NCBI RefSeq assembly: GCF_015667585.1
Contig: NZ_JADPEG010000004.1
Location: 124,001 to 188,000, forward strand
Length of the DNA: 64,000 bases
From: Clostridium sp. D33t1_170424_F3
GTDB lineage: Bacteria > Bacillota > Clostridia > Oscillospirales > Acutalibacteraceae
Direction: 5' to 3'
Shown here in pieces: positions 58,170-64,000 of the stretch (the stretch's first letter is position 1; each line of letters opens with the position of its first letter). A program made the position numbers and the translations under genes. Under the pieces are notes generated by a model, which was given only the letters and a program-made list of their open reading frames with translations, was not told the origin of the DNA and made no database searches.

Positions 58170-58211
58170 ATCGGACGGCGGCTCTTTCAGGGCGGCCGTC
58201 CGATGTTTTTA
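58170..58211 (+). terminator. Terminator after upp
   Basis: A 10-bp stem ATCGGACGGC (58170-58179) / GCCGTCCGAT (58195-58204), then GTTTTTAT. Confidence 0.9.
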
Positions 58212-58257: not shown

Positions 58258-58286
58258 TTGCTTTTTTACGGCAAATCATTTATGAT
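58258..58286 (+). promoter_or_regulatory. Promoter of the RsgA-RNHCP leader
   Basis: TTGCTT (58258-58263), 17-bp spacer, TATGAT (58281-58286). Transcription should start near 58293, giving a leader of about 380 nt. Confidence 0.75.
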
Positions 58287-58332
58287 AAGGACAAATAAAG
58301 TCCGAATCATTCGGATAACGAAAGGAAGTTGC

Positions 58333-58371
58333 ATGTTGATGTCGGTCGTTTTTGAGGTGGCTTTCCTCTAA
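58333..58371 (+). CDS. Putative 12-aa leader peptide
   Basis: ATG TTG ATG ... CTC TAA encodes MLMSVVFEVAFL. AAAGGAAG (58321-58328) lies 4 nt upstream, a good ribosome site. Short, hydrophobic, near the 5' end of a leader containing terminators. The S-V-V-F-E-V run is reminiscent of the Erm(A) leader (S-I-A-V-V-E-I), in which macrolides stall the ribosome; the resemblance is weak and may be chance. Confidence 0.55.
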   Translation: MLMSVVFEVAFL

Positions 58372-58474
58372 AACCGAATACCGTGGAACAGAGCAGAACG
58401 CGGAGGAAAACTCCGTGTGGTTTGTTATGTTCCTGCGACCTTTCGTGAATACTGTCGCGTTGATACGCATTGCA

Positions 58475-58499
58475 GGGCACGTTTGGCGTGTCCTTTTTT
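58475..58499 (+). terminator. Leader terminator 1 (RsgA-RNHCP)
   Basis: GGGCACG (58475-58481) pairs with CGTGTCC (58487-58493) with one G-U, followed by TTTTTT. Confidence 0.75.
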
Positions 58500-58531
58500 G
58501 CGCCCATTTTGCAGAAAGGATGCACTGGATG

Positions 58532-58577
58532 ATCCCGCGGAGACAGGACGGAAAGGCTCTGTCTCCGCGGGATTTTT
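58532..58577 (+). terminator. Leader terminator 2 (RsgA-RNHCP)
   Basis: A 13-bp perfect stem ATCCCGCGGAGAC (58532-58544) / GTCTCCGCGGGAT (58561-58573), followed by TTTTG. Confidence 0.9.
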
Positions 58578-58672
58578 GCGTTGTTTTGAGGGAAGCGGGC
58601 CTCACTGAAAAGGAGAAAAGAAAGTGAAAACAAATCAATTATATGTAAAAAATTATTTGGAGGCAAAAGACA

Positions 58673-60073
58673 TTGAATATCGAAAAATATGGGTTCCGCC
58701 CAATGACAAGTATCGAATATACAAACGGGATACCTGCACGCATTACCGCGGTCCATCGCGACCGTTTTAAAATCGTCTGCGATAACGGAAGCGGATTCGC
58801 ATGCCTGAAGACAGGGACGTATCATACGGGGAAGGAGGAGGTTCCGACCACGGGAGATTTCGTCCTGCTGGATTGGCAGGAAGACGGCGACAGCCGAATT
58901 TTGAAAACGCTGCCGCGCAAAACGTACTTTTCGCGCCGCGATCCGTCCGCGTCCGGACACAAAGAGCAGGCGGTTGCCGCCAATTTTGATTATGTGTTTA
59001 TCATGCAGTCGCTCGATCAGAACTTTAATCCACGCAGGCTGGAACGTTATCTGACGCTTGCCTGGCAGTCGGGCGCCGTACCGGCGGTAATTCTGACAAA
59101 GGCGGACTGCGTGGAGGACTATATGCCCCAGCTCCGTACCGCGGAGCGGCTGGCCGTGGGCGTGGGGGTTTTTGCGGTCAGCTCCAAAACGGGATTTGGG
59201 CTTGACCAGCTATCGGCGTACATGAAGCCGGGAAAAACGATCGTCTTTTTGGGATCCTCGGGGGTCGGTAAATCCAGCATGGTGAACGCACTCGCGGGAC
59301 AGGAAAGAATGGAAACCGGGAACATCCGCAAGAAGGACGGACGGGGAAGGCACACGACCACCTGCCGCCAGCTGCTTTTATTGGACAGCGGCGTCATGAT
59401 TATTGATACGCCCGGCATGAGAGAACTGGGAATGTGGGATGTCAGCGACGGGCTGGAGCAAAGCTTTACCGATGTGGAGCAATACCTGGGACAGTGTAAG
59501 TTCAGCGACTGCCGCCATCAGGGAGAACCGGGCTGCGCAATTGCAGCCGCCATTCAGCAGGGAGCGCTTTCTATGGAGCGCTGGGAAAGCTATCAGCGCC
59601 TTCACCAGGAAGCGTGTTATGCCGATGACAAGACGGAATATCTGCGTAAAAAGCAGCAGTGGGGTAAAAGTATTGCCAAGCTGCAGAAGCAGCTTCAAAA
59701 AGCCGACTACCGCCATGCGCCGTGTACGGAGAGCTTTACCTGCAAGGTTTGCGGCGCGTTGGTGGTCCCGGAGGACGCGGGAAGCCAGCACCGCAACCAC
59801 TGCCCGCGCTGCCTGTCCAGCGTCCATGTGGACAACCGGCCCGGGGATCGGGCGTCGCTCTGCAAGGGTGTGATGGACCCGGTTGGCGTTTGGGTGAGGA
59901 AAAATGGAGAATGGGCAATCATCCACCGCTGCCGTTCCTGCGGAACATTCAGTTCCAACCGCATCGCAGCGGACGACAATCCGACTCTGCTGATGTCCAT
60001 CGCGATGAAACCCCTGGCGGCGCCGCCGTTCCCGCTTTGGCAAATGGAACCGGAAAAGGGAAGTGAAAAATAG
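58673..60073 (+). CDS. RsgA-type ribosome GTPase fused to an RNHCP domain
   Basis: 466 residues. Residues about 1-340 are a full RsgA/YjeQ: N-terminal OB-fold, then a circularly permuted GTPase with G4 ILTKAD, G1 GSSGVGKSSMVN and G3 DTPGMRELG, and the zinc motif CKFSDCRHQGEPGC. RsgA matures or checks the 30S subunit. Residues about 360-450 are an RNHCP domain: FTCKVCGALV, QHRNHCPRCLSSVHVD, and HRCRSCGTFSSNRIAADDNP, with three CxxC-type pairs for zinc. TTG 58673 follows GGAGG with 9-nt spacing. The gene stands alone behind the leader peptide and two terminators. The typical housekeeping rsgA is probably elsewhere (with the PASTA kinase genes); this copy looks like an inducible, specialised paralogue, which is inference. 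Confidence 0.92.
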   Translation: MNIEKYGFRPMTSIEYTNGIPARITAVHRDRFKIVCDNGSGFACLKTGTYHTGKEEVPTTGDFVLLDWQEDGDSRILKTLPRKTYFSRRDPSASGHKEQAVAANFDYVFIMQSLDQNFNPRRLERYLTLAWQSGAVPAVILTKADCVEDYMPQLRTAERLAVGVGVFAVSSKTGFGLDQLSAYMKPGKTIVFLGSSGVGKSSMVNALAGQERMETGNIRKKDGRGRHTTTCRQLLLLDSGVMIIDTPGMRELGMWDVSDGLEQSFTDVEQYLGQCKFSDCRHQGEPGCAIAAAIQQGALSMERWESYQRLHQEACYADDKTEYLRKKQQWGKSIAKLQKQLQKADYRHAPCTESFTCKVCGALVVPEDAGSQHRNHCPRCLSSVHVDNRPGDRASLCKGVMDPVGVWVRKNGEWAIIHRCRSCGTFSSNRIAADDNPTLLMSIAMKPLAAPPFPLWQMEPEKGSEK

Positions 60074-63922: not shown

Positions 63923-63932
63923 TGGAATAAAA

Positions 63933-63980
63933 CTGCATAAAGAGAACCCGGCGTGCAAACGCCGGGTTCTCTTTATGCAG
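63933..63980. terminator. Terminator after ackA
   Basis: A 21-bp perfect inverted repeat (63933-63953 and 63960-63980; core AACCCGGCG-TGCAAA-CGCCGGGTT) with flanking AAAG/CTTT tracts. Functional in at least the forward direction. Confidence 0.92.
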
Positions 63981-64000
63981 TGACAGATTTCTCTTCCTTC

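Follow-up and report, generated by a model that had tools for sequence, protein, structure and literature searches.

GTPases of the RsgA family act on 30S subunits, and in the tet(M) leader of Tn916 two intrinsic terminators come after a short ORF. In Listeria, a leader attenuator (rli80) controls HflXr, a paralogue of a GTPase that splits ribosomes, and makes it inducible (PMC6310831). One of the two RsgA paralogues of Streptomyces (SCO6149/SCO5211) is raised together with resistance genes as part of the WblC regulon (PMC7157823). Ribosomes on upstream ORFs (uORFs) are held at the start codon by retapamulin or tetracycline, and those held on start codons by tetracycline have their edge at +16 to +18 (PMC12121999).

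The locus described here, rsgA2, belongs to a 3.2-Mb genome that is close to Anaeromassilibacillus senegalensis; it is found on contig 37, within a stretch of 64,000 nucleotides (the window). A sequence-only reading had proposed a promoter, a short leader ORF with its Shine-Dalgarno (SD) sequence, two terminators and a gene for an RsgA-RNHCP fusion, and all of these elements were found in the window:

58170-58210: terminator of upp, 5' of the leader promoter
58258..58286, + strand: promoter TTGCTT-17 nt-TATGAT, called from sequence, its hexamers also present in relatives
58318..58325, + strand: leader SD ACGAAAGG, the 5' half of predicted helix P1
58339..58371, + strand: leader ORF MSVVFEVAFL, 10 codons, conserved as a 10-codon ORF in 46 of 61 leaders
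58354-58359, + strand: SD-like GAGGTG inside the leader ORF (codons 6-7)
58385..58433, + strand: hairpin P3, between the leader ORF and the switch motif, in the predicted folds of most relatives
58439..58452, + strand: putative switch motif CCTTTCGTGAATAC, nearly invariant among leaders aligned on CCTTT, with SD covariation and complementarity to T1
58474..58499, + strand: intrinsic terminator T1, found by terminator scan and conserved with compensatory changes
58532..58577, + strand: intrinsic terminator T2, called from sequence and compensatory changes, its loop AAAGG complementary to CCTTT
58624..58770, + strand: possible second upstream ORF, located between T2 and rsgA2, which begins with GTG and runs in the +1 frame over the start of rsgA2
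58673..60073, + strand: rsgA2-RNHCP, TTG start, 466 aa, identified by Pfam domains and in a clade apart from canonical rsgA

The promoter scored under the threshold of a simple promoter scan; its hexamers and spacing are identical in Hungatella (L033), and both hexamers are kept in A. senegalensis (L039). The leader ORF had been read as 12 aa long from 58333. The ORF itself stands, but its conserved start is the second ATG at 58339, since the sister species lacks the first one, and the peptide is therefore of 10 aa. A frameshift in the leader that would carry translation across both terminators, suggested by a 91-aa ORF of the window, was rejected, as no more than 7 and 9 of the 61 relatives keep the alternative frame open. 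An SD-preceded upstream start is found before rsgA2 in 39 of 52 relatives, its peptide weakly conserved; in many relatives, as in the window, the second upstream ORF overlaps the beginning of rsgA2 in the +1 frame, and its translation is possibly coupled to that of rsgA2. Elsewhere in the window, 3' of the acetate kinase gene, a long near-perfect inverted repeat (63932-63981) with weak Rfam matches on both strands is probably a bidirectional terminator.

The rsgA2 product carries the circularly permuted GTPase domain and zinc motif of RsgA (GSSGVGKS, DTPG and CxxxxCxHxxxxxC), matching RsgA_GTPase (PF03193, 6e-50) and TIGR00157 (170.6 bits against a cut-off of 100). As had been anticipated, it is a second RsgA in this genome, the canonical rsgA being found on contig 11. 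Among 23 genomes, all 12 with a leader-borne rsgA2 also carry a canonical rsgA, and the other 11 have a single rsgA. In a maximum-likelihood tree, canonical and second RsgA proteins are fully separate (100/100 support); given this separate clade and an identity of 34% to the canonical RsgA of the host, RsgA2 is not an ortholog of the housekeeping protein. Proteins from Raoultibacter (Actinomycetota) and Enterococcus fall inside the Clostridia clade, a placement in the tree that suggests horizontal transfer. Two distant rsgA2 homologs, from Listeria (beside pnp; L200:1341-1500) and Acetoanaerobium (L201:1395-1500), are preceded by short leader-like ORFs, neither of which matches the leader model described below.

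The C-terminal RNHCP domain (PF12647, residues 353-441) matches at 4e-38, with 129.7 bits against a curated cut-off of 24. The sequence-only reading had made it the contact with RNA or the ribosome, but most leader-bearing RsgA2 proteins do without it, so it is neither essential nor the general contact with the ribosome; the fusion is a minority state scattered over the tree, which makes RNHCP an accessory. Standalone RNHCP genes (ca. 140 aa) often have before them a leader ORF of another kind, together with a hairpin (12 loci: L009, L014, L016, L020, L202, L203, L205, L207-L211, two of them phage-labelled gut contigs). These ORFs are of 11-12 aa (e.g., MKKRIWLEIVR) or of 16-18 aa ending in REVCxx, and run into a conserved CCGGGAGGTTTGCG that could base-pair with a CCTCCC preceding the ribosome site of RNHCP. 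Considering that standalone RNHCP has its own leader, the RsgA-RNHCP fusion brings together two modules, each of which is under the control of a leader in other loci.

We retrieved 80 homologous loci, of which 76 had sufficient upstream DNA to look for the leader. By sequence or by a covariance model (R1), it was found in 65 of the 76, including the double terminators, among members of the GTDB class Clostridia, Christensenella and others; several of the 11 loci without a match have divergent short leaders. The consensus consists of an SD (GAAAGGAG), a 10-codon ORF, TAAAACnGAATA, a hairpin, AAGTAACCTTTCGTGAATAC, terminator 1 and terminator 2. Since the aligned leaders were selected on the word CCTTT, its invariance alone is not evidence, and the unbiased figure for conservation is 65/76. 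In the alignment of relatives, changes on both sides preserve pairing at 12 of the 19 predicted pairs of T1 and T2, and in the window the segment from the SD to the motif folds with a z of -4.4. Rfam holds no family for this leader and gave no covariance-model match, a plasmid search at 'distant' sensitivity returned nothing, and the exact motif was not found in viral contigs. The arrangement, a short ORF with a ribosome site near the transcript start followed by an intrinsic terminator, would be that of a leader-peptide attenuator, and we consider it practically certain that a conserved attenuator precedes rsgA2.

In the predicted folds, the leader SD pairs with CCTTTC (P1), closing over the leader ORF and the hairpin. 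Motif and SD covary in this helix (50 C-G, 4 T-A, 2 T-G and no C-A among the leaders; Fisher test, 4e-5, the Fisher and rank tests given here ignoring relatedness). The same motif, ACCTTTCGTG, is complementary to T1, through GTG with the CAC arm and through ACCTTT with the loop and 3' arm, which read AAAGGGT, CGAAtAGGT or CACGtttGG in three subfamilies of different sequence. The motif-T1 duplex has a mean of -6.7 kcal, while 144 terminators unrelated to the leader average -4.2 (p = 3e-13, relatedness ignored), and shuffled T1 sequences pair more weakly with the motif (p = 2e-11). Composition explains part of this signal, since one reversed-motif control scored -6.4 on T1. T2 shows the same complementarity in weaker form. 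Across relatives, the covariation of P1 and the complementarity of the motif to T1 thus point to putative mutually exclusive helices.

The predicted mean for P1 is 0.77 when no ribosome is present, 0.74 when one stands at the stop codon and 0.09 when it occupies the start codon. The folding gain of T1, otherwise 8.7 kcal, was 7.8 kcal once the SD and first codons were masked, with a decrease at 23 loci and an increase at 5 (p = 2e-4), and thermodynamic folding lost T1 fully in some sequences only. In the window's own sequence, masking of the SD does not keep T1 from forming, so that thermodynamic switching was not seen there, and T2 is very stable and was not opened in the folding calculations; since the calculation opens neither of them, kinetics or other factors must be invoked. 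Two further pairings were set aside. One, between the motif and the GAGGT codons of the leader, shows few compensatory changes by eye. The segment after GAATA pairs with the 5' arm of T2 better than do swapped partners (p = 0.007) or shuffles (4e-6), but this pairing is negligible in the partition function and is a mere possibility. We consider it probable that the leader is a switch that responds to occupancy of its SD.

Whole-genome scans with R1 gave matches mostly before rsgA2, and also before other genes, for which the covariance model was needed, a strict motif pattern recovering rsgA2 leaders only. These other genes encode an APH-type kinase (L119, 129 bits), GNAT proteins (L120, L147 and L152, more weakly L131), a bipartite protein that combines a GNAT domain with an N terminus resembling, by eye, a kinase (L153), ABC exporters (L133, more weakly L135), a methyltransferase (L157) and a MutS-domain-V protein (L134). 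Four matches (L146, L162, L165 and L166) are without explanation, the genes at the last three having no obvious resistance role, and the weakest ones, which lack a leader ORF (L149, L150 and L169), are probably due to chance. No tet-type gene appeared among the loci examined. At least four copies of the leader occur in a single genome (G418) before different genes, namely ABC exporters, a MutS-domain protein and a GNAT protein (L133, L135, L134 and L120), a set that looks like a small RNA-controlled regulon. A response to translation inhibitors would be expected to involve just such families, which makes the leader a candidate for an attenuator induced by these drugs; that its signal is of this kind seems to us quite probable.

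What we infer for the direction of the switch, for a drug as its signal and for ribosome protection or rescue as the function of RsgA2 is the following. During normal growth the 10-codon leader would be translated and its ribosome quickly released, leaving the SD free to capture the downstream anti-SD-like CCTTTC in P1, so that T1 and T2 fold and transcription terminates. A drug that holds the ribosome on the first leader codons would cover the SD, and the released ACCTTTCGTG could then pair across T1 (and may also engage the loop of T2), allowing RNA polymerase to read through. Since the leader is shared with antibiotic-modifying enzymes and drug pumps, rsgA2 is probably on when antibiotics stall ribosomes. 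Taken together, a ribosome-mediated transcription attenuator is likely to control RsgA2, which, when antibiotics inhibit translation, would help 30S subunits or initiation complexes that have stalled; for protection or rescue of ribosomes by RsgA2 taken alone, we see the balance as about even.

It could be argued that the leader acts as those of erm genes do, by a peptide-specific stall that senses a single drug class, e.g., phenicols or oxazolidinones through a Ser or Thr at position 2. The commonest peptide pattern is M[ST]VxYEV[IA]xx, 36 of 61 leaders carry Ser or Thr as their second residue, and chloramphenicol stalls ribosomes mostly after Ala, Ser or Thr codons, according to work cited in PMC12121999. 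However, the remainder of the peptide varies, and its Glu-Val is kept as GAG-GTR (GAG in 37 of 39 leaders, GTG or GTA in 36 of 39), the other Val codons of these leaders being mostly GTT, GTA and GTC, which argues for a constraint on the RNA. In 46 of the 61 leaders, the word RAGGY has its first letter 18 nt ahead of where the stop codon ends; being SD-like, it could detain a ribosome that terminates there. As judged from these alignments, then, the conserved feature of the leader ORF is RNA rather than peptide. Conserved stall-determining amino acids, as in Erm(A)L or ErmCL, were not found among the leaders, and the resemblance to Erm(A)L that had been suggested is unsupported, because what is kept is a word of the RNA, RAGGYR, whose spacing to the stop codon is fixed; a peptide-specific stall is hence unlikely. 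That there are only two ordinary terminators and a functionless short ORF between upp and rsgA2 would suit T1 and T2 as simple intrinsic terminators and the promoter upstream of them, but it is highly improbable considering that leader length, motif, spacing and covariation are kept across genera and before unrelated genes.

A leader that senses the supply of 30S subunits, or initiation capacity, is slightly less probable than a peptide stall. In such a system the anti-SD motif would compete with 30S subunits for the SD and an assembly GTPase would regulate itself, as could fit the resemblance of the motif to the anti-SD of 16S rRNA, its pairing with the leader SD and the action of RsgA on 30S subunits known for the family. 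Nevertheless, occupancy of the SD should switch the gene on, so that a shortage of 30S subunits would switch it off, and the leader also controls kinases, acetyltransferases, exporters and a methyltransferase, which have no role in 30S assembly. We give very little weight to RsgA2 being a factor for phage defence or metabolite proofreading with a leader that serves some other stress. Overproduced RsgA of Escherichia coli is reported to block T4 (PMC10475562), and CpgA of Bacillus subtilis to detoxify 4-phosphoerythronate (PMC12445079), but no convincing match to a defence family was obtained beyond generic P-loop similarity, and the partner genes of the leader are of antibiotic type.

An antibiotic-responsive attenuator thus remains our preferred reading. 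As a wider proposal, to which we give slightly less than an even chance, these leaders may form an undescribed class of cross-gene attenuators of Clostridia that senses SD occupancy by drug-held ribosomes through a single anti-SD motif switching between the SD and the terminator, an RNA counterpart of the WhiB7 regulon, with RsgA2 (with or without RNHCP), its most frequent client, as a new class of 30S-directed antibiotic-tolerance factor. The leader offers a sequence signature for candidate intrinsic resistance genes of gut Clostridia that needs no knowledge of the protein, and the proposed new effector is an RsgA paralogue that would act on 30S subunits, a parallel to the action of HflXr on 50S/70S. 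Leader-bearing species in culture include Hungatella effluvii, Christensenella hongkongensis, Eisenbergiella tayi, Acetivibrio mesophilus and A. senegalensis.

Considering the client families and the precedents of HflXr, WblC and uORFs, RsgA2 is best read, by analogy, as an inducible RsgA acting on 30S subunits or stalled initiation complexes. Like rsgA2, HflXr is a second copy of a ribosome-associated GTPase with a short leader ORF (14 aa in HflXr) and attenuation by terminator and antiterminator; HflXr is drug-induced, as rsgA2 would be. However, HflX acts on 50S/70S and is preceded by a leader with a single terminator and an RLR motif, whereas RsgA is a 30S factor, and the rsgA2 leader has 10 codons without RLR, two terminators and an anti-SD motif common to other gene families. 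The RsgA paralogue under WblC/WhiB7 is raised by tetracycline alongside ABC, GNAT and MFS resistance genes (PMC7157823), but it is controlled by a transcription factor and belongs to Actinomycetota. Ribosome-mediated transcription attenuation of a drug-response gene is also known from BmrB-bmrCD of B. subtilis (PMC4191407), in which the leader ORF is longer and itself contains the terminator, with one known target family. The toiL uORF of E. coli topAI (PMC12121999) is a short ORF that senses several classes of ribosome drugs, with stalls that include the start codon; unlike the rsgA2 leader, it acts on translation and Rho termination and not on intrinsic terminators. Finally, the leaders of CplR and VgaL (Lmo0919) in Clostridia and Listeria (PMC10201436) also combine a uORF, an anti-SD element and a terminator, but their uORF has three codons and the protein that they control is an ABC-F antibiotic ribosome-protection factor.
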